Source: Microbacterium sp. W4I20 (lineage in GTDB: Bacteria; Actinomycetota; Actinomycetes; Actinomycetales; Microbacteriaceae). Taken from it: a stretch of 64,000 nucleotides of DNA. Below are positions 7,371 to 28,289 of the stretch, piece after piece. Location of the stretch: assembly GCF_030816505.1 (NCBI RefSeq), contig NZ_JAUSYB010000001.1, positions 1,302,001-1,366,000 of the forward strand, read 5' to 3'. Both the position numbers and the translations under genes were made by a program. The first letter of the stretch is position 1. Each line of letters starts with the position of its first letter. The notes below the pieces were generated by a model that was not told the DNA's origin, searched no databases, and saw only the letters and a list, made by a program, of their open reading frames with translations.

Positions 7371-8666
7371 TCAGAACTCCGCCACCCAGGCCTCCTGCGC
7401 CTTCTTGAGCGCGTCGTCGATCGACTGCTGCCCGTCGAAGGCGGATTGCAGCTGCTCGCCGAGCTGGCGCATGAGCTCCTCCGCGACCGGCAGTCCGGTG
7501 AACTCGTTCGCCGGGTAGCCCGCCTGGTAGATCTCGAACGCCTTCTTGAACAGCTCGTCGTCGGCCACGAAGTCCGGCACCGACTTCGAGTTGCCGGGGA
7601 AGGCCTTGGCCATGGTCGACAGCTCGGAGTTGGTCTGCTCGCTCATCAGGAAGGAGACCAGCTTGAAGGCCGCTTCCTTGTGCTCGGAGTTCTCGGCCAC
7701 GCCGATCCCCCACGAGGCGTAGGGAATGCCTCGTTCGCCCTCGTACCCGTCCTCGGCCGGGATCGCCGAGATCGAGAACTTCAAGTCGGGGTTGGTCTCG
7801 CGGATCAGGTTGATGTGCGCGAGCGAGTCGATCATCATGCCGGCGCGGCCGTTGGTGAACTCCTCGACCTTGTCCTGCTCCTTCATCGTGAAGGAACCGG
7901 AGGCGATGACGCCGTCGTCCCACAGGTCGCCGATGTAGTCGACGGCCGAGGTGACGTCGTCGTTCGTGAGGTCGGGCTTGCCGTCATCGAGCATTGTGCC
8001 GCCGGACGCCCAGGCCCATGACATGACGTCGTTCTGCACGCCGTTCGGCGTCTCGAGCGACAGCGGCAGGACCCAGCCGGACACGTCTCCGCCGAGGGCG
8101 GTGACCTTCGCCGCGGCATCCGCGAACTCCGAGCGGGTGGAGGGAGGGGCGTCGATGCCCGCCTGCGACAGGAGGTCGTCGTTCGTGAACATCGGGTAGA
8201 CGAAGTTCACGACGGGGATCATGTAGGTGCTGCCGTCGACCTGGATCTGGCTGGCCAGCTCGCTGTCGTCGTAGTCGTTCTCCTTCATCAGCGCGGTCAG
8301 GTCCGCGATGACGCCCTGCGATGCGAAGTCGTTGACCCACGCGCCGTCGAGACCGACGACGTCGGGCATGGTGCCGGATGCGGCGCCGGCGAAGAGCTGC
8401 TCCTTGGTCGACGCGTACGGCCCGCTCACCAGCTTCACAGTGATGCCGGGGTTGTCGTCCTCGAACTGGTCGATGAGCGCGCGGAACTCGCCATCCGGCA
8501 GCTCCGGCTCCCACCACTGGGCGAACTCGATCGTCGCATCTCCGCCGTCGCCGCCGTCGCCGCCCGTGGCGGGTGCGCAGCCTGCCACGGCGAGGATGCT
8601 CACCGCCGCGGTCGCGGCACCGATGATGTTCCGGGTGCGCCTGCGCCCTCGTCCCACTGTGCTCAT
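7371..8666 (-). CDS. Sugar ABC transporter substrate-binding lipoprotein
   Basis: Extracellular family 1 solute-binding protein, 431 residues. It has a basic N-terminus, a hydrophobic stretch and a lipobox ending LAVAGC (Cys near residue 29), so it is predicted to be tethered to the outer face of the membrane. The mature part opens with ATIEFAQWWEPELP and contains ASGTMPDVVGLDG, typical of CUT1 binding proteins. The ATG at 8666 is preferred to the adjacent GTG because of GAGGAG spacing. It is the first gene of the operon, under a near-consensus promoter flanked by repeats likely bound by the divergent DeoR regulator. Confidence 0.92.
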   Translation of the reverse strand: MSTVGRGRRRTRNIIGAATAAVSILAVAGCAPATGGDGGDGGDATIEFAQWWEPELPDGEFRALIDQFEDDNPGITVKLVSGPYASTKEQLFAGAASGTMPDVVGLDGAWVNDFASQGVIADLTALMKENDYDDSELASQIQVDGSTYMIPVVNFVYPMFTNDDLLSQAGIDAPPSTRSEFADAAAKVTALGGDVSGWVLPLSLETPNGVQNDVMSWAWASGGTMLDDGKPDLTNDDVTSAVDYIGDLWDDGVIASGSFTMKEQDKVEEFTNGRAGMMIDSLAHINLIRETNPDLKFSISAIPAEDGYEGERGIPYASWGIGVAENSEHKEAAFKLVSFLMSEQTNSELSTMAKAFPGNSKSVPDFVADDELFKKAFEIYQAGYPANEFTGLPVAEELMRQLGEQLQSAFDGQQSIDDALKKAQEAWVAEF

Positions 8667-12700: not shown

Positions 12701-14408
12701 CCGAGTTCTCGATCTCCATGAGCGAGACGATCTCGGCATCCAGCCCATTGATCGCCGCGACGATCTTGGACTTCTGGATGGCGAACTGCGCGGCGTTCGC
12801 CGCACCGCGCGCATCCGAGTTCTCGGACTTCAGCGTCGTGAAGTAGTTGTAGACGTTGAACGACGCGACCTGGGCGTCGCCGCCGACCTCGGGGGCCGAT
12901 TCGGTGCGCGGGTTGGTCGCCTCGAAGCCGACCTTGAGGTCTGCCGACGAGGAGTCGTCGATCGGAACGGTCGGCTGCAGCCGCCAGTCGTCGAAGCCCC
13001 ACTGCAGCACATATCCGTTGTCGCCGAAGTCGACGGTGTCGCCGTTGCGAACGACCGCGTCCTCCGTGAAGTACGGCTGGTCGCCGGGGTGACCGCTGTT
13101 GGTGACCTGGATGGACCAGCCGTCGTCGAGCAGCACCCGGTTCGCCCGGTTCGCCGCAGCGATCGCCGCGGCGGCTTCTCCCGGACGCGTGGTCTCGGTG
13201 CTCTTGACGTTGAGCTCTGCCCCGGCGTTCAGCCACAGCGTGCCGAAGTTGAAGAGCTGGTGGCTGGAGGCGAGACGGTAGGTGCCTTCGGGCGCGACGT
13301 ACATGTTCTCGTACTGCTCGCGGGCGGCGCCGACGACCGTGTCTGCGAGCGGCGTGACCGCGGGAACACCCGCTCCTGCCGCGAGCACCTCGACGTCGGC
13401 CACGGTGCCCGGGTTGATCTGCGTCTGACCGAAGTACTCGCTGACCGTGCCGGTCACCGAGACGAGGTCGCCGATCTGGAGCGACGGTGCGAGCGCGTTC
13501 AGGAAGACGAACACGCCGTCGGATGCTCCGGGCGTGGCATCCGCTGCCCCGCCCGAGCCCTGCGCCTGGACGACGATGCCCTTGTAGCCGCCGGTGCGGT
13601 AGTCGGCGGTGACGACACCCTCGACCTGCACGGTCTCGCCGTTGAGCGGCGACACGTCGGTCGTGCCCTGCACCTCGGCGATCGTCGCGGGCGTGGGGTC
13701 CGTGACAGGACCCGGGTCGGTCCCACCCGAGTTCTGCGGGGTGATGGTCGCCGACAGCGTGAAGTCCGCGCGGTTGTCGTCGGTGTCGATGCCGTCGGTG
13801 CGGTTCAGCGACTTGACGTCGGTGTTGCCGGTCGGCGGAGTCGCCGCAGACGTCTCGAAGGTGTTCGAGGTGCCGTAGCCCAGCAGGTCGATCACGCCGT
13901 CGACGCCCGCGACCGAGCCGGGCGTGAGGGTGACCGCGGCGGTGCCGTCGACGAGAGCGAGCGTGCCGTTGGTGCCGCTCGGCGTCAGGGTGCTGACGGC
14001 ATCGGCGGCGGGCAGCTCGGCGCCGTTCGCGCCGTTGCTGTTGCCCTGCACGAGGTAGTGGCCGCCGGCGGGGATGACACCGGTGAGCGGTGCCACGCCG
14101 TTCGCGGCGCCGGTGCCGGTCGCCGAGCGGTACTGGAGCGACATGCCGTCGAGGGTGATGGGAGCCGAGGTCGGGTTGTACAGCTCGACGAACTTGTTCT
14201 TGAAGGCCGCTCCGGCGCTTCCTCCGGAGAGGTACGCCTCGTTGATCACCACCCCGTCTCCTGCGGGATCGGCGAACGCGGGCACGGCGGTCAGCGAGCC
14301 GAAGCCCAGGGCTGCCACACAGGTCACGGCGAGAGCGCCGACGCGCCCCCTGTTTCTACGGTGCGAGACGGGAGCCATGCGGTTCCCGTCGTCTGGAGCG
14401 GACATCAT
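9783..14408 (-). CDS. Secreted ExeM/NucH-type nuclease fused to a 5'-nucleotidase
   Basis: A 1541-residue exported protein that probably degrades extracellular DNA and dephosphorylates the products. Order: signal peptide (cleavage after AVPAFA), a lamin-tail domain (about 40-160, INEAYLSGG), an OB-fold region (about 250-345), an endonuclease/exonuclease/phosphatase domain (about 505-815; VANHFKSK, LIGDFNAYGKED, SSDHDPIIVG), a metallophosphatase (from about 820; MNDFHGRIE, GNHEFDQGW), a 5'-nucleotidase C-terminal domain (to about 1320), then Ig-like repeats ending in a hydrophobic, Trp-rich tail. The ATG at 14408 follows GAGGAG. No sortase motif is visible; the C-terminus may instead bind the wall or membrane. 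It is transcribed alone and likely serves phosphate or nucleoside scavenging. Confidence 0.9.
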   Translation of the reverse strand: MMSAPDDGNRMAPVSHRRNRGRVGALAVTCVAALGFGSLTAVPAFADPAGDGVVINEAYLSGGSAGAAFKNKFVELYNPTSAPITLDGMSLQYRSATGTGAANGVAPLTGVIPAGGHYLVQGNSNGANGAELPAADAVSTLTPSGTNGTLALVDGTAAVTLTPGSVAGVDGVIDLLGYGTSNTFETSAATPPTGNTDVKSLNRTDGIDTDDNRADFTLSATITPQNSGGTDPGPVTDPTPATIAEVQGTTDVSPLNGETVQVEGVVTADYRTGGYKGIVVQAQGSGGAADATPGASDGVFVFLNALAPSLQIGDLVSVTGTVSEYFGQTQINPGTVADVEVLAAGAGVPAVTPLADTVVGAAREQYENMYVAPEGTYRLASSHQLFNFGTLWLNAGAELNVKSTETTRPGEAAAAIAAANRANRVLLDDGWSIQVTNSGHPGDQPYFTEDAVVRNGDTVDFGDNGYVLQWGFDDWRLQPTVPIDDSSSADLKVGFEATNPRTESAPEVGGDAQVASFNVYNYFTTLKSENSDARGAANAAQFAIQKSKIVAAINGLDAEIVSLMEIENSVKLGKPVDSALKDLVAGLNADAGSEVWDYVPTPAALNSAATTDYITNAIIYKKDAVSPVGDSATVTDETVWGNAREPIAQAFDIDGRVVTVVANHFKSKSPPDGAGAEPADGQGFFNADRVKQANSLLAFTAELEETAGSGDMLLIGDFNAYGKEDPIDVFTSKGWSDLVADKAAGQYTYTFDGELGSLDHVIASPSLAASITGAGVWGINSPEWSDRGYAYGATEEGTPYRSSDHDPIIVGVSSEIPPVSIDVVTMNDFHGRIEADGAAAGAAVVAGAVQQFREENPNTIFAGVGDLIGASTFTSFINDDNPTIDALNAAGLDVSAAGNHEFDQGWEDLRDRVQERADWEYISSNVFVTETGEPALAPAWVKELDGVKVGFVGAVTEDLDSLVSPEGIKDLEVRSIVDSVNAVADDLRDGDAANGEADVVILLVHEGAESVDVASITPESPLGEIVYGVDDDVNAIVSAHTHLAYNHVIDGRPVISAGQYGENLGLMNIQVDAKSKDLISITNEIKPLTAAGKPLYPAVPAVADIVAKAKAEADVLGAVKVGDIAADFNRARQSDGKTENRGGESTIGNFVADVQKWSTGADIALMNPGGLRANLTYASSGASDPDGNVTYREAATVQPFANTLVTLTLTGAQLKGVLEEQWQPAGSARPFLKLGVSEGLVYTYDPTAAQGSRITSITLNGTAIDPAANYNVAANSFLAAGGDNFFTFKEGAGKRDTGKIDLQSMVDWFDENKTANPDYAQRAVGVAVSPADADGYSAGDQVTVSLSSLAFSAGEPAPGEVSLSLGDTQLAAGAIDPSVVDTTDEVGRASLTFTVPSGVFGEQSLTVAVAGTGTTVQVPFTIAGEGEFAGTIDLGSSKVTAGKKLAITGEGYQPGETVTVELRPKKGQPVEVGTVQVGDDGSFSTKVTVPKKTQPGKYTVAVSQADGDEATATVTVNRAGGIGGIIGDILDWLWDLLNGWW

Positions 14409-14497
14409 CGGTGCTGTCTCCTCGGTCGGTCGTGCGACATCTCTCATGAATCTGTCACGGCGCGCACCGGGGTCTCCCAGCCCGCACACATGTTGCG

Positions 14498-15465: not shown

Positions 15466-16587
15466 TCAGGCCTCGTACGGTGCGAGCACGACCTCGACCC
15501 GCTGGAACTCCTTGAGGTCGGAGTAGCCGGTGGTCGCCATCGACTTGCGCAGCGCGCCGATGAGGTTGGCAGTGCCGTCGGCGACGGGTGCGGGACCGTA
15601 CAGGATCTCCTCGAGCGTGCCGATGCCGCCCACCTCGACACGGTGGCCGCGCGGCAGCTTCGGGTGGACCGCCTCGGGTCCCCAGTGGAAGCCGCGACCC
15701 GGGGCGTCGGTGGCGCGGGCGAGCGCGACCCCGAGCATGACGGCGTCCGCCCCCATCGCGAGCGCCTTGACGATGTCACCGGACGTGCCGACGCCGCCAT
15801 CGGCGATCACGTGCACGTAGCGGCCGCCGGACTCGTCGAGGTAGTCGCGACGCGCAGCCGCGACGTCGGAGACCGCGGTCGCCATGGGCGCGTGGATGCC
15901 GAGCGTCGCACGGGTCGTCGACGCCGCTCCCCCGCCGAACCCGACGAGGACTCCAGCAGCGCCGGTGCGCATGAGGTGCAGCGCGGCAGTGTAGGTGGCC
16001 GCACCGCCCACGATGACGGGGACGTCGAGGTCGTAGATGAACTTCTTGAGGTTCAGGGGCTCCGCCACGCTGGAGACGTGCTCGGCCGACACCGTGGTGC
16101 CGCGAATCACGAACAGGTCGACGCCGGCAGCGGCGACGGTGTCGTAGTGCTCCTGCGTGCGCTGCGGGGTGAGGGATCCGGCCACCGTCACGCCGGCGTC
16201 ACGGATCTCGGCGAGGCGGCGGGTGATCAGCTCGGGCTTGATCGGCTCGGCATAGAGCTGCTGCATGCGGACCGTCGCCTCGGCGTCGTCGAGTCCCGCG
16301 ATCTCCGCCAGCAGCGGCTCCGGGTCTTCATAGCGCGTCCACACGCCTTCGAGGTCGAGCACGCCGAGACCGCCCAGCTGTCCGAGCATGATCGCCGTCT
16401 GCGGGCTCACGACCGAGTCCATCGGCGCCCCCAGCACGGGGATGTCGAAGCCGAAGGCGTCGATCGTCCATGCGGTCGAGACATCCTCGGGGTTGCGCGT
16501 GCGCCGTGACGGCACCACCGCGATGTCGTCGAACGTGTACGCGCGGCGTGCGCGCTTTCCTCGGCCGAGCTCGATCTCCATGGTCAC
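15466..16587 (-). CDS. guaB3: GuaB3-type IMP dehydrogenase-related protein
   Basis: A 373-residue paralogue of IMP dehydrogenase found in actinobacteria and cyanobacteria. It keeps the barrel (LGAPMDSVVS, VHVIADGGVGTSGDIVKAL, MLGVALARA) but lacks the CBS pair, and the catalytic loop reads GFGGGAASTTR, so the cysteine that attacks IMP in true GuaB is absent. Its role is unsettled; a different purine-related reaction is possible. The start is the GTG at 16587: a TAGGCT hexamer stands exactly six bases upstream, pointing to a leaderless mRNA. ATG at 16581 is the alternative. Confidence 0.88.
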   Translation of the reverse strand: MTMEIELGRGKRARRAYTFDDIAVVPSRRTRNPEDVSTAWTIDAFGFDIPVLGAPMDSVVSPQTAIMLGQLGGLGVLDLEGVWTRYEDPEPLLAEIAGLDDAEATVRMQQLYAEPIKPELITRRLAEIRDAGVTVAGSLTPQRTQEHYDTVAAAGVDLFVIRGTTVSAEHVSSVAEPLNLKKFIYDLDVPVIVGGAATYTAALHLMRTGAAGVLVGFGGGAASTTRATLGIHAPMATAVSDVAAARRDYLDESGGRYVHVIADGGVGTSGDIVKALAMGADAVMLGVALARATDAPGRGFHWGPEAVHPKLPRGHRVEVGGIGTLEEILYGPAPVADGTANLIGALRKSMATTGYSDLKEFQRVEVVLAPYEA

Positions 16588-18411: not shown

Positions 18412-18777
18412 TCACGGACGCAGCTGCACGATGTGCTCGGACTCGCCCCACGCCCGATCAGCCGTGAGCACCGTCGCCTCGATGCGCTGTGCCAAGGCCA
18501 GGCACAGCCGATCGCCGAGCGAGAGACCGCTGCCCCGACGCCACATCGCTGCCGCCGTCTCGGCGTCTTCCCGCGACAACGGTTCGATCGACAGGTCGTA
18601 GCTGAGGAGCAGACCCGATGCGACGCCCCAGTCGGCGCCGGCCGCCTGGACCTTCTGCGCGACCTCCGACCAGTTCGCCGTTCCGACGATGGCTCCGTCC
18701 AACTCCTCCTCGACTCGGTCGGCGCCGGCCTCACCCTGCAGGAAGGCGAGCAGCGCGGAGGCATCGAGGACGATCAC
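18412..18777 (-). CDS. vapC: VapC-type PIN-domain toxin
   Basis: A 121-residue PIN-fold ribonuclease, the toxin of a type II module. The opening MIVLDASALLAFL carries the first acidic metal ligand (Asp5); further conserved acids lie in the NWSEVAQK region (Glu near 38) and in SLGDRLCLALA and VLTADRAW. Such toxins cleave tRNA or rRNA until the antitoxin binds. The start overlaps the antitoxin stop (ATGA), the usual coupled arrangement. Confidence 0.85.
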   Translation of the reverse strand: MIVLDASALLAFLQGEAGADRVEEELDGAIVGTANWSEVAQKVQAAGADWGVASGLLLSYDLSIEPLSREDAETAAAMWRRGSGLSLGDRLCLALAQRIEATVLTADRAWGESEHIVQLRP

Positions 18778-19022
18778 GCGGCGGTGTCCTCGGCCTCCGC
18801 CGCGGCGCGACGTTCGGCGAGGAGCGCCGCGAGCGCATCGCTTCCGTCAAGTTGCGCCCGGACCAGAGCCTTGGCCTGCTCGCGCGTGACCAGTATGACT
18901 CCGCCGTCGGTCTCGATCATGAGCAGCCGAACCCCTTGGTCCCAGTGCTGCCGCGATCGGAGTTCAGCGGGAACGACGAGACGACCCCGATCCCCCATCG
19001 GCGCTACGAAAGTGGTATCCAT
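18774..19022 (-). CDS. vapB: VapB-type antitoxin, AbrB/MazE-like
   Basis: An 82-residue protein whose N-terminal half is a swapped-hairpin AbrB domain (GDRGRLVVPAELRSRQHW), which binds DNA as a dimer. The C-terminal half is an acidic/Ala-rich helix expected to wrap the toxin. It precedes and overlaps vapC. A TACCGT hexamer lies six bases before the ATG, so the mRNA is probably leaderless, and the GGTACC palindrome overlapping it could be the autoregulatory operator. Confidence 0.82.
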   Translation of the reverse strand: MDTTFVAPMGDRGRLVVPAELRSRQHWDQGVRLLMIETDGGVILVTREQAKALVRAQLDGSDALAALLAERRAAAEAEDTAA

Positions 19023-19086: not shown

Positions 19087-20877
19087 TCACTCGGCGCGAC
19101 TCAGCGTCTGCAGCACCTCGGTCCGCGGAGCAGACGGCAGGACGAACCGGAACTCGGTGCCCACTCCCTCCTCGCTGCTCACGTCCATCGTGCCGCCGTG
19201 GGCGAGGACGATCGCGCGGGTGATGGTCAGCCCCAGACCGACGCCGGGCACGGCGTTTCGGGTCGCCGTCGATGCGCGGAAGAACCGGGTGAACAGCATC
19301 TTCTGCTCGTCTTCCGGGATGCCGACGCCCGTGTCGCGCACCGACAGCTCCACGCCGCCGTCGACCGTCCGGAGCCGTGCGGTGACGTTCCCTCCGCGCG
19401 GTGTGAACTTGATCGCGTTGGAGAGGAGGTTGTCGAGTGCTTGACCCATCCGCCCGGCGTCGACGAGCAGGCCCAGCGGGGCTTCCGGAACCTCCGCGGT
19501 GAGGGTGATTCCCTCGCGCTGCGCGTGCGGTCCCGCCGATGCCACGGCGGAGCGCACCAGCTCGGCGAGGTCGGTGTCCGAGCGGTCCAGCGGGAACCGT
19601 CCCGACTCGACCTGGGCCGTGAAGAGCAGGTCGCCGACGAGGTTGAGCAGTCGCTGGGCGTTGCGCTCGATGATGCCGACGAACTCCTGCTGGTCCGCGG
19701 TGAGCGGCTGCCCCGGATCGTGCTGGAGCAGATCGAGGAACCCGATGATCGCGCTCAGCGGGGTCCGCAGCTCGTGCGAGATCATCCCGACGAACTCGTC
19801 CTTCATGCGTGCGACCTCGACGGCCTTGCTCTCGTCGGTGACCACCAGCAAGTACCCCTGCTGTCGTCCTGCGCCGTCCCGATACGGGCTGACGGTCACT
19901 CTGGCCGGCACCGAACTGCCGCCGGCCGTCACGACATCGACGTCGCGCTCGATGCTCTGATCGCCGTCGGCGCCGTCGAACAGGGCCCGAAGCCCCGGAG
20001 GGAGTTCGGACGGGTGATCGGCGCGCTGCTCGATCGTGCAGTCGCTCGCGAGCACGGTGAGGGAGGTCTCCGAGAAGATCCGGTCGACACGCACGTCCTG
20101 CGTCGCCTCGGCCGCCGTAAGTCCGAGCAGTCTTTCCGCTCCCGGATTCCAGGCCGTGACCACGCCCCGCAGGTCCGTCGCGATGACGGCCTGAGCGGTG
20201 ATCGACGACCACAGGCCCTCGTACGACTCGACGAGTGAGCGGAACTGGTGCTCCTTCTCCCGCAGCTGCACGATCATCTTGACATTGTCGGCGAGCGTGG
20301 CCGTCCGCTCTGTCACCAGCTCCTCGGCCTGTTCGGCGCGCACGCGCTGCTGCCGCGAGAGCTCGTTGACGACGGCCGCCACGGCGGCGAACACGAGCGG
20401 CCCGACCACGCCGCGCAGCCAGTCGACGGAGCTGCTGGGCGGATCGGCGAAGTACGGCATGAGCAGCGCGAGCGAGGTCAGACCGCCGACCACGAAGACA
20501 TAGCGGATGCCGGGGGCGGCGGCGATCCACACGGTCGGCAGCAGCACCAGAGAGGAGAAGAGCGAACCGGCCCCGCCGGTTCCGGCGCGGAAGAGGCCGA
20601 GACCGACGATGTCGATCATCGGGATGAGCAGCACGATCCAGCCGTCGTGCACCCGCCGAGCGCTCAGTACCCCGGCCTGCACGGTCGCCGCCAGGACGAT
20701 CGCGATACCCAGGATCGCCGCGCCGAAGTGGGTGAACGGCAGATCGGCGTTGAGCCAGGTCAGCAGCCCGGCGACGACGGCCGCGATGAACGTCGGCGCC
20801 TGCTTGACCAGCGGGCTCGGGTTGTCGAAGACCTGGTACCAGCGGTTCTCGGCCCGATCCAGCGGCGTGGCCCTCAT
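19087..20877 (-). CDS. Membrane PAS sensor histidine kinase
   Basis: A 596-residue kinase. The N-terminal third (about 25-190) holds some six hydrophobic helices, followed by a short coiled coil (QRVRAEQAEELVTERTATL) and a PAS domain (about 240-360; QAVIATDLRGVVTAWNPGAE). The phosphoacceptor His is in MISHELRTPLSAIIGF, and the ATPase has NLLSNAIKFTPRGG, GVGIPEDEQ and GLGLTI. It is the last gene of a seven-gene overlapping operon; its ATG overlaps the stop of the lone receiver (ATGA). Its partners are presumably that receiver and the receiver-PIG-L fusion, since the operon encodes no DNA-binding regulator. Confidence 0.9.
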   Translation of the reverse strand: MRATPLDRAENRWYQVFDNPSPLVKQAPTFIAAVVAGLLTWLNADLPFTHFGAAILGIAIVLAATVQAGVLSARRVHDGWIVLLIPMIDIVGLGLFRAGTGGAGSLFSSLVLLPTVWIAAAPGIRYVFVVGGLTSLALLMPYFADPPSSSVDWLRGVVGPLVFAAVAAVVNELSRQQRVRAEQAEELVTERTATLADNVKMIVQLREKEHQFRSLVESYEGLWSSITAQAVIATDLRGVVTAWNPGAERLLGLTAAEATQDVRVDRIFSETSLTVLASDCTIEQRADHPSELPPGLRALFDGADGDQSIERDVDVVTAGGSSVPARVTVSPYRDGAGRQQGYLLVVTDESKAVEVARMKDEFVGMISHELRTPLSAIIGFLDLLQHDPGQPLTADQQEFVGIIERNAQRLLNLVGDLLFTAQVESGRFPLDRSDTDLAELVRSAVASAGPHAQREGITLTAEVPEAPLGLLVDAGRMGQALDNLLSNAIKFTPRGGNVTARLRTVDGGVELSVRDTGVGIPEDEQKMLFTRFFRASTATRNAVPGVGLGLTITRAIVLAHGGTMDVSSEEGVGTEFRFVLPSAPRTEVLQTLSRAE

Positions 20878-21221
20878 CGCGGCATCCTGTCGAGGATCGC
20901 GCGCAGGTCCGCGCCGGTGATCGGCTTCGGCAATGCGGCGTCGGCGGGCGGGTAGTCGGCGGCATCGAGGACAGAGCTGATGACGAGGAAGCATCCGGGA
21001 AAGCGCTCCTGGACGAGCCGCGCGCACTCCTGCCCGGAGATCCCGGGGAGCAGCAGGTCGATCACCGCGAGCACCGGTTCGATCTCGGCGAAGGCGGAGA
21101 TCGCGGATTCCGCATCGGCCACGGCGAACACGTCGAAGCCGGCACGGTCGAGGTGGCGGCGGAGCAGCGCGACCTGATCGTCAGCGTCTTCGACGACGAG
21201 GGCCAGCGGCCTCCCGCTCAT
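20874..21221 (-). CDS. Stand-alone response regulator receiver
   Basis: A 115-residue receiver domain and nothing else. Visible are the acidic pocket Glu11-Asp12, phosphoacceptor Asp55 in AVIDLLLPG and the conserved Lys in LPKPI. Without an output domain it must act by protein contact or as a phosphate shuttle or sink, probably between the adjacent histidine kinase and the receiver-PIG-L fusion upstream. It overlaps both neighbours by 4 bases. Confidence 0.88.
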   Translation of the reverse strand: MSGRPLALVVEDADDQVALLRRHLDRAGFDVFAVADAESAISAFAEIEPVLAVIDLLLPGISGQECARLVQERFPGCFLVISSVLDAADYPPADAALPKPITGADLRAILDRMPR

Positions 21222-21361
21222 CGGAGGAGCAGCTCTCGCACGACCACGATCACGATCACGACGCCCAGGGCGAGGAGCGCCTGCGGCACGAGACGGCGTT
21301 CACGACGGGCATCCGCAGCGACCTCCTCCACCTCGGCTTCTTGCGAGGGTGCTTCGGTCAT
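21218..21361 (-). CDS. 47-residue single-pass membrane protein
   Basis: A small gene placed between the glycosyltransferase and the receiver, overlapping each by four bases (ATGA at both ends), which is strong evidence that it is translated. The first half is acidic (MTEAPSQEAEVEEVAADARR), then a basic RRERR and one hydrophobic helix (PQALLALGVVIVIVVVREL) ending in LLR. I know no family for it. It may be an accessory subunit of the glycosyltransferase or the membrane kinase. Confidence 0.65.
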   Translation of the reverse strand: MTEAPSQEAEVEEVAADARRERRLVPQALLALGVVIVIVVVRELLLR

Positions 21362-22845
21362 GAGTCGACCCGTCCGATCTTCTCGGTCTTGATCCACGAG
21401 GCGTCGGCGCGACGCCACTCCTTGAAGTACGAGTCCACGGTGATGGCGCAGAGCAGCGATCCGTAACCGCAGACGTAGAGCAGGAGCCCCGCGAAGAAGC
21501 GCCCGCCGGGGAGGGGCTCCACGGCGCGGGCGAGCCAGATGCCCAGCATCGAGATCGGCCCCCAGAGGTAGAAGACCACCGCCCAGAAGAATCTCGTCTC
21601 GTCCGTCAGCGGGAGCCCGAGCTGCGTCAGAGCGCCCTCGAACAGCCAGGGGAACAGCGCGAAGGCCATCAGGATCAGGGCCCCGAGTCCGGGGAACATG
21701 ATCGCCTCCCGCCACGACTGCCGACCGATCCGCGGGTCGAGCTGAACCGCGTAGAGCATCGAGAACAGGTAGATGCAGGCGGCCGAGATCCACATGAAGC
21801 GGAACACGAACTCCGCGATGTCGCTGTGCAGCACCAGCAGCACGAGCATCGCCGCCGCCGCCAGGAGCATGAACGCGGGCAGCAGCAGGATCGTGAACCA
21901 CGCGAGACCGAACGGGATGCTGCCGAGGTTGTGGTCGCGGCTCGGCCGGAACCACAGCTTGCGGTAGATCGCGGTGAGCTGCACGTTGCCGCGGGCCCAG
22001 CGCAGCCGCTGCTTCCAGAGACTGTCGACGGTGCGCGGCTCCTCGGCGAGCACCACCGCGTGCGGCTCGAAGACCATGCGCCGCCCCTTGAGCTGCCCCT
22101 CGAACGTCGTCATGGTGTCTTCCGCGAGGGTGCCGGTGGGGATCCGCCCGCCGATCGCCTCGAGGTTCGCGCGAGAGTGCAGCTGCGCCCCGCCGGCGAG
22201 ACACGCGATGGCACCGCCGACGTTCTGGGTGCGCCGGGCGGAGAGCTGCCCGATCACGTACTCGATGGCGATGAAGCGCGTGAGGTAGTTGCGGTCCCGG
22301 CTGCCCTCGGCGATGTAGGCCGTGACGGCGCCGACCTTCTCGTCGGCGAGATGCCGGCTGAGCTTGCGCAGGGAGTCCCTGGCGAAGATCACGTCGGCAT
22401 CCATGATGAGCACCGCCTCGGCCCACTCGTCCGCGAGGATCACGTCGAGGCCGTGGTTCAGAGTGTGCGCCTTGCCCTCGCCGCCCTTGTCGCGGCGGAG
22501 GTGCACGACGCGACCCGGATACGCGGCTGCCTTGGCCGTCACGATGTCGGGGGTGTCGTCGGTCGAGGCGTCGTCGACGACGAAGATCCGCAGCCGCTCG
22601 GCCGGGTACTCGAGCTGCAGCAGCCGCTCGATGGCCGGTCCGATCACGAGCCCCTCGTTCCACGCCGGGATCACGACGGCGATGTTCGGGTGGTACGGCG
22701 CCGCCTTCGGGTAGTGGTTGCGGAACGCGTGCACTGGGAGCATCAGGAACTGCAGACCGGTGTTGATCACCGGCAGCGTGCCGATGAAGACGCACAGCAG
22801 CAGGAAGATGACCAGTGCCGTCTCGAGCCAGGTGAGATCGGCCAT
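21358..22845 (-). CDS. BcsA-like membrane glycosyltransferase, family 2
   Basis: A 495-residue membrane enzyme, probably a processive synthase that polymerises and exports a polysaccharide. An N-terminal helix is followed by a cytosolic GT-A domain with VVIPAWNEG, VVDDASTDDTP, IMDADVIF and, after TLAEDTMTTFE, the acceptor-site motif QRLRW (near residue 280). About five to six helices follow. The start is the ATG at 22845 overlapping the PHP gene stop (TGATG); a GTG just before it is equally coupled. There is no PilZ domain, so c-di-GMP control as in cellulose synthase is not indicated; control by the operon's phosphorelay is more plausible. Confidence 0.87.
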   Translation of the reverse strand: MADLTWLETALVIFLLLCVFIGTLPVINTGLQFLMLPVHAFRNHYPKAAPYHPNIAVVIPAWNEGLVIGPAIERLLQLEYPAERLRIFVVDDASTDDTPDIVTAKAAAYPGRVVHLRRDKGGEGKAHTLNHGLDVILADEWAEAVLIMDADVIFARDSLRKLSRHLADEKVGAVTAYIAEGSRDRNYLTRFIAIEYVIGQLSARRTQNVGGAIACLAGGAQLHSRANLEAIGGRIPTGTLAEDTMTTFEGQLKGRRMVFEPHAVVLAEEPRTVDSLWKQRLRWARGNVQLTAIYRKLWFRPSRDHNLGSIPFGLAWFTILLLPAFMLLAAAAMLVLLVLHSDIAEFVFRFMWISAACIYLFSMLYAVQLDPRIGRQSWREAIMFPGLGALILMAFALFPWLFEGALTQLGLPLTDETRFFWAVVFYLWGPISMLGIWLARAVEPLPGGRFFAGLLLYVCGYGSLLCAITVDSYFKEWRRADASWIKTEKIGRVDS

Positions 22846-23558
22846 CACGACGCCTCCCCCTCCTGAAGCAGCGCCGTCACCCGCGTGTACCGTCCGACGT
22901 CCGAGGCCAGGTGGCTGTCGGTCGATGCGACGATCCCCGCGCCCGCTCGGCGCAGCGCGGCAAGGGAGCGGATGCCGGGGCAGCCCCACTTCTCGTTCAC
23001 CTCGACGAGCGTGTCGGTCGCCGCCGCCGCGCGCGCCCAGGTGTCGATGCGCTCGTCGCCGAGGTCGTCCTCGGACAGGCCGATCTTCGGGAGGATCGAG
23101 AAGCAGTGCGCGAGCTGGTTCCCGGGGTAGCGCTGCATCGACGCGATCAGCGCTTCGACCAGCTGGTCGAGGACGTCATCGTGCGCCCAGCCCTCGGCGA
23201 TCCGCTCGCGCACCGCCGTCGGTCCGAGCGGGCCGTCGACCCCCGGAAACTGGTGATCGGCGATCAGGATCCGGTCGATGCCGGTGGGAAGAACGGGGAT
23301 GTCCAGCGTGCCCGAGGAATCGAGGATCTTCGCCTCGACTCCGCTCAGCACGGTCAATCCATCCGGCACGACAAGCGCACGGACGGCGGCGAGGTACTCC
23401 GGAACCCAGGCGGTGCTGGTCCGCACATGATCGACGAGGCGCACGGTCGAGAGCCCGGCGGCCGCGGCTGCGGCGACGTTCTCCTCGAGGGTCGACACGG
23501 CATCGTCCGAGAACGTGGAGTGCACGTGGTGATCCCCGCGCAGAGCCGGATGGCTCAC
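22845..23558 (-). CDS. PHP-domain phosphoesterase
   Basis: A 237-residue protein with the metal-binding PHP fold: DHHVHSTFSDDA at residues 9-20, VDHVRTS, VEAKILD, ADHQFPG, HCFSILPKIG and the C-terminal STDSHLASDVG. It resembles histidinol-phosphatase-type enzymes but is not in a histidine operon. The nearby glycosyltransferase, ATP-grasp protein and deacetylase suggest that it removes phosphate from a carbohydrate or lipid precursor. It overlaps the ATP-grasp gene by 4 bases. Confidence 0.82.
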   Translation of the reverse strand: MSHPALRGDHHVHSTFSDDAVSTLEENVAAAAAAGLSTVRLVDHVRTSTAWVPEYLAAVRALVVPDGLTVLSGVEAKILDSSGTLDIPVLPTGIDRILIADHQFPGVDGPLGPTAVRERIAEGWAHDDVLDQLVEALIASMQRYPGNQLAHCFSILPKIGLSEDDLGDERIDTWARAAAATDTLVEVNEKWGCPGIRSLAALRRAGAGIVASTDSHLASDVGRYTRVTALLQEGEAS

Positions 23559-24544
23559 AGTTCCTCCTGATGCCCCGCGTGATCGGAGACGAGCAGATCC
23601 TCGACCTCCACGATCACGTCCTCCAGGAACCGCACCGAGGCGACCTCCCGGAACGGGACCGACGCGGGCAGCTCGCGACCCAGGAAGAGGTCGGCGACGA
23701 GCGAGGGGATGTCGACGCCCGCCGCGATCGTGAGCGGGAGCGCACCGGGGAATCGCGGATTGACCTCGAGCAGCACGGCGCGACCGGTGCGATCGCGGCG
23801 GAGCTGCACGTTCGCGACACCGACGAGCCCGATAGCCCGGGCGATCGCCGCCGCCGTGTCCTCGAGCTCGGGATCGCGGACGGTCTGCCCGGCGATGGCC
23901 ACACCCGAGTCGACTCTGGCGCGCGTGCGCGGCACGGCAGCCACGACGTGGCCCGCGGCATCCGCGATGACGTCGACGGAGTACTCCTCGCCGGGCAGGA
24001 AATCCTGCACGATGAGTCCTTCGTCGGTCGGCAGCGCCTCGAGCGCCGCCCGATCGGGGACCATGCGGATGCCGCGACTGCCGGCGCCCTGCCGGGGCTT
24101 GGCGAAGACGGGGAACTCCCAGTCGACGGCTTCGGCGTCGGGTCCGGCGAGGACGGTGCGCGGGGTGCGGCCGGTGGCCGCGCAGCGCTCGGCGAGCGCC
24201 ATCTTGTCGAGCGCGGTGTTCAGCGTGTCCGCAGAGGGCGCGGCCAGCACCGCGGGAGCCAGTTCTTCCCGGCGATCCGCGAGGGCGATGAGCTCGACGT
24301 CGACCGTCGAGATCACGAGATCCAGCGCGTCCTCTTCGACCATCCGGGCGATGGCGGGCACGAAGTCCTCGTCCCTGCCGGGCGGCACGAGGCGTCGCTG
24401 CGCCGGCGGGACCAGGTAGATGCCGCTCGCCCAGCCGTCCATGTCGGCGGCGAACACGGTCAGGTCGTCGCGGCCGAGCAGCGACCGGATCACGGCGACT
24501 CCGGCGGGGCCACCCGCACCGGTCACCAGCACTCGCTTCGTCAT
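23555..24544 (-). CDS. ATP-grasp protein (carbamoyl-phosphate-synthase-like)
   Basis: A 329-residue ligase-type protein. It begins with a Rossmann-like pre-ATP domain (KRVLVTGAGGPAGVAVIRSL), then an ATP-grasp core with FAKPRQGAGSRGIRMV, IVQDFLPGEEYSVDVIAD and the metal-site VLLEVNPRFPGALPL. Such enzymes join a carboxylate to an amine or thiol through an acyl phosphate. The substrate is unknown; adding an amino acid or similar group to a sugar or lipid intermediate would fit its neighbours. The stop overlaps the PHP start and the start overlaps the fusion gene's stop. Confidence 0.83.
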   Translation of the reverse strand: MTKRVLVTGAGGPAGVAVIRSLLGRDDLTVFAADMDGWASGIYLVPPAQRRLVPPGRDEDFVPAIARMVEEDALDLVISTVDVELIALADRREELAPAVLAAPSADTLNTALDKMALAERCAATGRTPRTVLAGPDAEAVDWEFPVFAKPRQGAGSRGIRMVPDRAALEALPTDEGLIVQDFLPGEEYSVDVIADAAGHVVAAVPRTRARVDSGVAIAGQTVRDPELEDTAAAIARAIGLVGVANVQLRRDRTGRAVLLEVNPRFPGALPLTIAAGVDIPSLVADLFLGRELPASVPFREVASVRFLEDVIVEVEDLLVSDHAGHQEEL

Positions 24545-25587
24545 CAGCTCTCTCTTCTCGTGAGTTCGTGGGCGCCGACGAACTCCGCCGTCTCGCGCAC
24601 CACCTCCAGCGGCTCCACGGCCATGCCGCCGCCGAAGCGGGACCAGTACCGTGCGGTGGCGGTGACGAAGCCGGGCTCGAGGTAGTCCCGGCTCGCCGTC
24701 TGCGAGCGGAAGCGCTCGAGGAGCTGAAGCTTCTGCTCGAGATATTGGTCGATGCGGACGAAGCGCGTGGGGCGGAAGTCGATCGTCGCCGAGGGGCTCT
24801 GGTAGCACGCGACGGTGCCGACTCGGCGCGTGGCCACGATCGTCGCCTCGCTCACGGCCCGGTGGTCCTGGTGCCGATCGTGACTCGAGTGGGTGTAGAC
24901 GATGGTCGGCTCGATCTCGCGCACGACCTCCTCGATCAGACGAACGGTCGCACCGCCGCCGGAGATCTCGGTGTCCACGAGATCCTTGACGAACAGTCGT
25001 GCGCCGAGCATGTCGGCTGCCGCGAGCGATTCGCCCTGCCGGCTGTCGGCATCGCCGCCACGAGCTCCGCGAGACAGGGTGAGGATCGTGATCTCATCGC
25101 CGCCCTGCGCATGGGCCGCGAGCAGTCCCCCGACGCCGATCTCGACGTCGTCCGGATGTGCACCGATCGCCAGCACCCTTTCCTTCGGACGGCCCTCTTC
25201 ACGACGGCGCCGGCCTTCTTCGACGAGCCGGGTGACGGCCTCGACCAGCTTCGCGTTGTCGAGCGGCTTGGTGAGGAACTCGTCGGCCTGCGCGCGCAAC
25301 GCGGAGACGGCGTACTCGACCGAGACGTGCGCGGTCATCACGATCACCGGGACGCTCGGAACGGTGCGGCGCAACTCCGCGAGCAGCTCCAGCCCGCTGA
25401 GTCCGGGCATCTCGATGTCGGTGACGACGACGTCGGGTCGCATCGCGGCCACCCGCTCGATCGCGGCCTGGCCGTCCGAGGCGACTTCGACGATGCAGCC
25501 GGCTCGGCGCTCCAGCACCGTCTTCACGAGCAGCGCGACATCGGGATCGTCGTCGACGACCAGAACGCGAGGGGTCTCCTCAGCCAT
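24544..25587 (-). CDS. Response-regulator receiver fused to a PIG-L/LmbE deacetylase
   Basis: A 347-residue two-domain protein. Residues 1-125 are a receiver (acidic triad Asp12-14, phosphoacceptor Asp57 in VTDIEMPG, conserved Lys in FLTKPL). After a basic linker (EEGRRRREEGR) comes a PIG-L zinc deacetylase with IGAHPDDVEIGVGG and HSSHDRHQDHR. PIG-L enzymes remove acetyl groups from N-acetylglucosamine-type substrates, so here phosphorylation may switch a metabolic enzyme directly. The ATG at 25587 has AAGGAG nine bases upstream; it is the first gene of the operon. No DNA-binding domain is present. Confidence 0.88.
   Translation of the reverse strand: MAEETPRVLVVDDDPDVALLVKTVLERRAGCIVEVASDGQAAIERVAAMRPDVVVTDIEMPGLSGLELLAELRRTVPSVPVIVMTAHVSVEYAVSALRAQADEFLTKPLDNAKLVEAVTRLVEEGRRRREEGRPKERVLAIGAHPDDVEIGVGGLLAAHAQGGDEITILTLSRGARGGDADSRQGESLAAADMLGARLFVKDLVDTEISGGGATVRLIEEVVREIEPTIVYTHSSHDRHQDHRAVSEATIVATRRVGTVACYQSPSATIDFRPTRFVRIDQYLEQKLQLLERFRSQTASRDYLEPGFVTATARYWSRFGGGMAVEPLEVVRETAEFVGAHELTRRES

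Positions 25588-26699: not shown

Positions 26700-28289
<1,590 letters not shown>

Follow-up and report, generated by a model that had tools for sequence, protein, structure and literature searches.

A conserved seven-gene block of Actinomycetota joins a receiver–deacetylase fusion to an enzyme set, a membrane microprotein and a sensor kinase

In a 64,000-nt stretch of the Microbacterium sp. W4I20 genome (contig NZ_JAUSYB010000001.1, positions 1,302,001 to 1,366,000; hereafter, the window; host genome, 4.31 Mb), seven overlapping open reading frames (ORFs) at window positions 19087-25587, all on the minus strand and with intact start and stop codons, form a block that is real, conserved and, as far as our literature search reaches, undescribed: its parts are known and their combination is new. 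The block sets a PIG-L-family deacetylase with a receiver domain fused to it beside an ATP-grasp enzyme, a PHP-family phosphoesterase, a membrane family-2 glycosyltransferase (GT2), a single-helix membrane microprotein, a lone receiver and a sensor histidine kinase. In gene order, the features are as follows.

25587-24544, minus strand: receiver–PIG-L fusion, 347 residues; receiver at residues 8-118 (PF00072, 115 bits), PIG-L/LmbE deacetylase domain at 139-252 (PF02585, 84.8 bits).
24544-23555, minus strand: ATP-grasp enzyme of the ATPgrasp_Ter / PRK12767 type, 329 residues; best Pfam match PF15632, 108.6 bits.
23558-22845, minus strand: PHP-family metal-dependent phosphoesterase, 237 residues, GTG start; PF02811, 39.7 bits.
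22845-21358, minus strand: membrane GT2, 495 residues, with DD, DxD, ED and QxxRW motifs; PF13641, 108.5 bits.
21361-21218, minus strand: single-helix membrane microprotein, 47 residues; charged N-terminal part, helix and an Arg near the C-terminal end; no Pfam match.
21221-20874, minus strand: lone receiver domain, 115 residues; PF00072, 39.8 bits.
20877-19087, minus strand: membrane sensor histidine kinase, 596 residues; multi-helix N-terminal part, PAS (PF00989), HisKA (PF00512) and HATPase (PF02518) domains.

Consecutive genes overlap by 1, 4, 1, 4, 4 and 4 bases, as an initial annotation of this DNA had reported. That annotation also held that the genes are made as one unit, and gene order, overlaps and co-occurrence across genomes agree, supporting the seven genes as one conserved unit at the level of sequence comparison.

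First, gene order is kept across genera. A scan of named genomes with the PHP alignment yielded 182 relatives, of which we studied the best 80, recounting gene order from tblastn matches that lie on one strand and in order, with the window's lone receiver as the query for its counterparts. The receiver–PIG-L fusion, ATP-grasp, PHP, GT2, lone receiver and kinase were all present in order in 60 of the 80 named loci (14 genera), and most of the remainder were without only GT2 or the lone receiver. The named genera are Microbacterium, Leucobacter, Leifsonia, Protaetiibacter, Mycetocola, Okibacterium, Salinibacterium, Agromyces, Frigoribacterium, Glaciihabitans, Sanguibacter, Cellulomonas, Janibacter and Blastococcus. 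ATP-grasp precedes PHP in 80/80 loci, and PIG-L precedes both in 79/80, the exception (L099) being a short (3.8-kb) contig. The receiver part precedes PIG-L in 77/80 (L047, L097 and L099 are contigs that start too late), GT2 follows PHP in 71/80, a kinase lies downstream in 76/80 (exceptions L097, L099, L101 and L110) and a lone receiver was detected in 69/80. The core also occurs in four more distant genomes, two of the same class (G158 and G006; loci L029 and L030) and two of another class (G635 and G439; loci L114 and L115). The genes flanking the operon vary with lineage, suggesting that the gene order is kept by selection acting on the block rather than by a frozen chromosome.

Second, the overlaps themselves are conserved. 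Counting the window and all loci in which the gene caller placed both genes within 200 bases of each other, an in-frame start codon that gives an overlap of 1 or 4 bases is present in 66/76 PIG-L–ATP-grasp, 76/79 ATP-grasp–PHP, 66/71 PHP–GT2, 50/53 microprotein–receiver and 64/67 receiver–kinase junctions. These counts, and those of residues, microproteins and neighbouring genes below, rest on a purpose-built codon-usage gene caller, which missed genes in L063, L071, L080, L099 and L103 that are visible by tblastn or ORF listing. L027, L028 and L035 were excluded from the residue, junction, microprotein and neighbour-family counts (L028 repeats L101; L027 and L035 come from one and the same contig region, and that copy has no row). 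The 81 loci of the chance and neighbour-family counts are 79 of the 80 named loci plus L029 and L030. Alignment rows shorter than 75% of the query were dropped; the PIG-L alignment thereby lost the receiver-less L029, the frameshifted L069 and the contig-cut L047 and L097. In L069, the receiver and PIG-L parts lie in different frames at about 7987-8359, a frameshift that is either real or from sequencing.

Third, PHP and GT2 are inherited together. We drew samples of 296 genomes of the class and 396 of the phylum evenly from larger groups, with the window genome (G000) in each. In the class sample, five genomes (G000, G168, G178, G158 and G006) had a PHP match at E of 8.2e-49 or lower, and GT2 at E up to 1e-60 marked the identical five; thirteen more PHP matches, at 6.3e-8 to 9.9e-6, were partial and weak and were taken for other PHP proteins. 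G168, a genome of the same genus as the window, carries the operon. In the phylum sample, PHP (profile, 1e-15) and GT2 (1e-60) were both found only in G000, G439 and G635. The chance of identical sets under random placement is 5e-11 for the class and 1e-7 for the phylum, or 3e-9 and 1e-5 with the window genome left out, values that are indicative only given shared ancestry.

The distribution of the block is patchy. A PHP ortholog is present in 25 of 149 Microbacterium genomes. In 16-kb regions around guaB from six operon-free Microbacterium genomes (L131-L136), guaB and guaB2 are kept in order and none of the five operon genes sought gave a match; abcF was found in 2/6 and DUF2277 in 2/6 of these regions, with the two matches 91 bases apart in L134. 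By this comparison, Microbacterium has a single site for the cassette that is either filled or empty, and the best reading of these sequences is that the cassette is accessory and is gained or lost. Janibacter rows group with Microbacteriaceae in the tree, which suggests transfer. A transferable element was considered and rejected: plasmid records held no PHP match at 1e-10, and of viral contigs 24 stretches fit the pattern and none was confirmed as a relative by tblastn. Three further records (P0166, P0190 and P0290) hold PHP relatives about 50% identical to the PHP protein of L115 (from Sandaracinus and an Acidobacteriota) and a receiver–PIG-L fusion (from Variovorax). By sequence similarity, the system may reach phyla beyond Actinomycetota.

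The residues expected of a working two-component switch are intact. In the fusion, receiver residues D57, T85 and K107 are kept in 77/77 aligned rows and D13 in 76/77, preserving the phospho-acceptor set, and the metal-site motif of the PIG-L part is likewise intact (H144, D146, D147 and H242 in 77/77, H239 in 75/77). The lone receiver keeps D55 and K99 in 78/78 rows and D12 in 77/78, and the kinase, whose N-terminal part shows hydropathy peaks, keeps H368 and N487 in 73/73. With a receiver joined to an enzyme, and with its phospho-acceptor set conserved along with the enzyme's metal-site motif, control exerted on the enzyme is the natural reading, and on these features we consider direct enzyme-level control of PIG-L very probable, in line with the initial proposal that the two-component genes act on the enzymes themselves. 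Output through a transcription factor was rejected: the Pfam scan (E up to 0.001) found no DNA-binding domain in the seven proteins, bearing out the earlier statement that no DNA-binding regulator is present. The earlier term 'phosphorelay' is overstated, since the Pfam scan detected no histidine phosphotransfer (HPt) domain or hybrid kinase among the seven proteins, the rest of the genome lying outside this search; the operon has one kinase facing two receivers.

The sensing side of this layer changes from lineage to lineage. The N-terminal 225 residues of the window kinase have matches in those genomes of Leifsonia and Sanguibacter that were searched and gave no match at E 0.001 in G158, G006, G635, G439 or the Janibacter and Blastococcus genomes. 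L115 has, upstream of the fusion, a receiver protein and a kinase that carries several PAS domains; in L114, a divergent CHASE3 hybrid kinase stands beside it; and in L030, two tandem receivers precede PIG-L (13012-14475) and a kinase gene lies immediately upstream. Ten loci outside Microbacterium, mostly of Microbacteriaceae, carry a pair of consecutive lone receivers. Finally, L029 has a receiver-less PIG-L and all five core genes, and its 20-kb region gave matches to neither kinase nor receiver. Because this locus has the core without receiver or kinase, the two-component genes are likely an add-on to a five-gene core, and from this pattern we infer an enzyme core with an exchangeable phospho-switch on PIG-L.

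Receivers set directly on catalytic domains are familiar from CheB and PleD-type regulators. The fusion shares with these a receiver that has its phospho-residues and is joined to an enzyme, here in an operon with a histidine kinase. It differs from them in its output domain, a deacetylase of the PIG-L family encoded within a biosynthetic operon.

The microprotein is a regular companion of the enzymes. A strict scan, which replaced a first, looser one (starts within about 150 bases), found a one-helix ORF after GT2 in 73/73 loci, with an exact 4-base overlap in 70, and directly after PHP in 9/9 Leifsonia loci without an operon GT2; with L114 and L115, it is present in 84/84 loci examined. The same scan after other genes gave 1/71 (after PHP where GT2 follows), 0/81, 0/76, 0/78, 0/34, 0/34 and 0/32. 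The microprotein's helix and topology are assigned from hydropathy alone. A glutamate before the helix (E21) is kept in 84/84 aligned rows, an arginine at the far helix end (R42) in 83/84 and E13 in 80/84. The idea that the microprotein is a GT2 subunit only is weakened by its position directly after PHP in Leifsonia.

Nine of ten Leifsonia loci have the operon without GT2, the tenth (L094) having it, and all nine such genomes carry a GT2 elsewhere at 56-58% identity (split over two contigs in G654). Six of these nine unlinked GT2s were placed in a tree and fall with seven operon GT2s in a 13-row clade (support 100/100; branch 0.4). The simplest reading of the sequences is that GT2 was relocated, not lost, in Leifsonia; a GT2 that moved and was yet kept argues that it works with the rest of the cassette. 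A dispensable GT2 in Leifsonia is thought unlikely, given the related copy elsewhere in the genome. The initial annotation had named scattering of the genes in relatives as the outcome that would count against it; this was borne out only in part, GT2 being unlinked in these nine loci. In L116, the unlinked GT2 adjoins luciferase-like monooxygenase and FMN reductase genes (Pfam), and the other five unlinked-GT2 regions of the L116-L121 set resemble L116 by eye.

The four enzymes belong to recognizable families. An AlphaFold model of the fusion (predicted local distance difference test, pLDDT, 88) matches BC1534, TT1542, BshB and chitobiose deacetylases in its PIG-L part, which scores 89.3 bits against a cut-off of 182.5 for the bacillithiol deacetylase BshB1 (TIGR04001). 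For the ATP-grasp enzyme (model pLDDT 92), the nearest solved structure is 2pn1 (template-modelling (TM) score 0.76/0.81), and K149, E260, N262, P263 and R264 are kept in at least 97% of 81 rows. PHP keeps H11, H13, H44, E75, H102, H151, D214 and H216 in at least 97% of 81 rows, and its only sequence-matched solved structure is YcdX (1m65). In GT2, which has about six hydrophobic stretches, all nine residues of the D, DxD, ED and QxxRW motifs are present in 73/73 aligned rows. The QxxRW motif occurs also in non-processive enzymes. The best named model for GT2 is PgaC/IcaA (TIGR03937), at 118.7 bits against a cut-off of 422.3, and cellulose synthase (TIGR03030) reaches 63.4 of 699.1. BcsA is a distant GT2 relative (PDB 4hg6, E 7e-9), from which the operon enzyme differs by its score far below cut-off and by having no PilZ domain (Pfam); with both model scores this low, the earlier label 'BcsA-like' processive synthase is overstated. 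Reading a substrate from structure was dropped, the fold matches being too distant.

On balance, we lean towards an accessory biosynthetic cassette that yields a conjugate of an amino sugar (a surface glycan, perhaps, or a glycolipid) and is gated by phosphorylation of the deacetylase. The core would consist of the PIG-L deacetylase, an ATP-grasp ligase, a PHP phosphatase, the membrane GT2 and the one-helix microprotein. At the membrane, GT2 would build or transfer a glycan or glycolipid that contains N-acetyl-hexosamine, PHP would strip phosphate from an intermediate, PIG-L would deacetylate the amino sugar to give a free amine and the ATP-grasp enzyme would join the exposed amine to a carboxylate, using ATP. 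A deacetylase that exposes an amine and an ATP-grasp enzyme that acylates it would be the simplest joint use of the two, by analogy with their families; the exact order of the reactions is speculative. The microprotein may tether the soluble enzymes to the membrane or modulate the complex. On sensing a cue, the kinase would phosphorylate the receiver on PIG-L and so switch deacetylation; the lone receivers, of which there are one or two, may compete for phosphate or act on partners. A glycan or glycolipid is the probable product, and a surface glycan is plausible.

Several observations weigh against this proposal. The nearest solved relatives of PIG-L and ATP-grasp are only 22-26% identical, and the substrates named for all four enzymes are proposals. 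The tests made gave no sign of export or surface location. Since the microprotein follows PHP in Leifsonia, it need not serve GT2. The long branch (0.4) of the unlinked GT2s makes replacement by a related GT2 a possible alternative to relocation. The tree of GT2 disagrees with that of PHP in several places (L110, L029 and L076; no formal test), so that these genes may not always have moved together. Finally, L101 and L110 keep the fused receiver without an operon kinase, so the kinase is not always local.

This last observation would also suit a different account, in which joint transfer keeps the block together, the two-component genes mainly regulate something else and the PIG-L receiver is a phosphate sink or structural domain. 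The presence or absence of the operon at one Microbacterium site and the grouping of Janibacter with Microbacteriaceae fit it too. We consider this account very unlikely in view of the invariance of D57, T85 and K107 in all 77 aligned fusions and of the kinases with different sensors that adjoin the fusion in L114 and L115. An ordinary exopolysaccharide operon is unlikely: GT2 would be a PgaC/IcaA-like polymer synthase, PIG-L would act on the polymer or its precursor and PHP would be a CpsB-like phosphotyrosine phosphatase setting chain export. Poly-GlcNAc synthase systems of the PgaC/IcaA type do share with the block a membrane GT2 with DxD, ED and QxxRW motifs and a deacetylase and small membrane protein nearby; PgaC/IcaA is the best named GT2 model, and PHP-family phosphatases act in Gram-positive capsule control. 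However, its score is far below the cut-off, the deacetylase here is of the PIG-L type, and none of the seven proteins is, by Pfam, a PgaB-type deacetylase, a tyrosine kinase or an exporter. The only solved match of PHP is YcdX, with no CpsB model among its seven listed models, and the ATP-grasp enzyme, an extra gene here like PHP and the two-component genes, is left unexplained.

Mycothiol-like logic is quite doubtful; by it, the product would be a soluble conjugate of glucosamine, a small metabolite for protection or signalling rather than a surface polymer. Many actinobacteria make mycothiol. The four enzyme types parallel MshA, MshA2, MshB and MshC; mycothiol and bacillithiol pathways likewise combine a glycosyltransferase, a PIG-L-family deacetylase and a ligase; and the PIG-L fold is nearest BC1534, TT1542 and BshB. 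No MshB or MshC match in the window genome exceeds the curated cut-offs, which leaves room for a thiol-like product; the top MshC match, at 271 of 485 bits, looks by eye like cysteinyl-tRNA synthetase. Published work places the mycothiol pathway in most Actinomycetales (PMC4255298) and reports mycothiol genes in a Curtobacterium (PMC12029717). By contrast, the glycosyltransferase of the block is a membrane GT2 with QxxRW, unlike MshA, its ligase is an ATP-grasp enzyme, unlike MshC, and the spread of PHP orthologs over only 25 of 149 Microbacterium genomes speaks against a genus-wide or general thiol pathway.

Two further comparisons concern other known systems. Ter-linked ATP-grasp enzymes belong to the same domain family (PF15632), whereas the other six genes of the block have no Ter-type Pfam domain, the search covering these genes and not Ter genes elsewhere. 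A role as a defence system was rejected: PADLOC, run on four of the seven proteins, matched only residues 4-120 of the fusion, a generic receiver, to SduA at 35.1 bits.

Around the operon, a DUF2277 gene lies 169 bases upstream on the same strand, and two IMP-dehydrogenase-like genes flank the block at 26700-28202 (named by eye) and 15466-16587 (Pfam), the pair that the six operon-free Microbacterium genomes retain in order. Downstream, within 18412-19022, a PIN-domain gene (Pfam) is preceded by a short overlapping ORF without a Pfam match; the two are perhaps a toxin–antitoxin pair. The window holds no Rfam match at gathering score and no tRNA. Across the 81 loci, a carbon–nitrogen hydrolase family appears in the fetched region of 19 and an aminotransferase family in 19 (for example, L086 and L087; Pfam check in L087).

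The initial annotation knew of no named system with this composition, and our literature search, outside which most subscription papers lie, found no description of the block. Nor did it find a description of a receiver–PIG-L fusion: a term search of an LmbE-family review (PMC4101496) gave neither 'response regulator' nor 'receiver'. Databases list such fusions under automatic names.

The core defines a candidate pathway in several actinobacterial families, with an almost invariant charge pair in its membrane microprotein. It is conceivable, though we would not expect it, that this is a two-component system with catalysis as its main output, in which the kinase switches the deacetylase by phosphorylating it and so gives access to N-acylated amino-sugar products of a new class (glycan, glycolipid or mycothiol-like metabolite) made on a tiny membrane scaffold, with different sensors coupled to one core in different actinobacteria. 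Two-component systems are mostly read as switches of gene expression. A receiver set on a metabolic enzyme, with its phosphorylation residues kept and its kinases varied by lineage, is a clean setting in which to ask whether phosphorylation controls metabolism directly.

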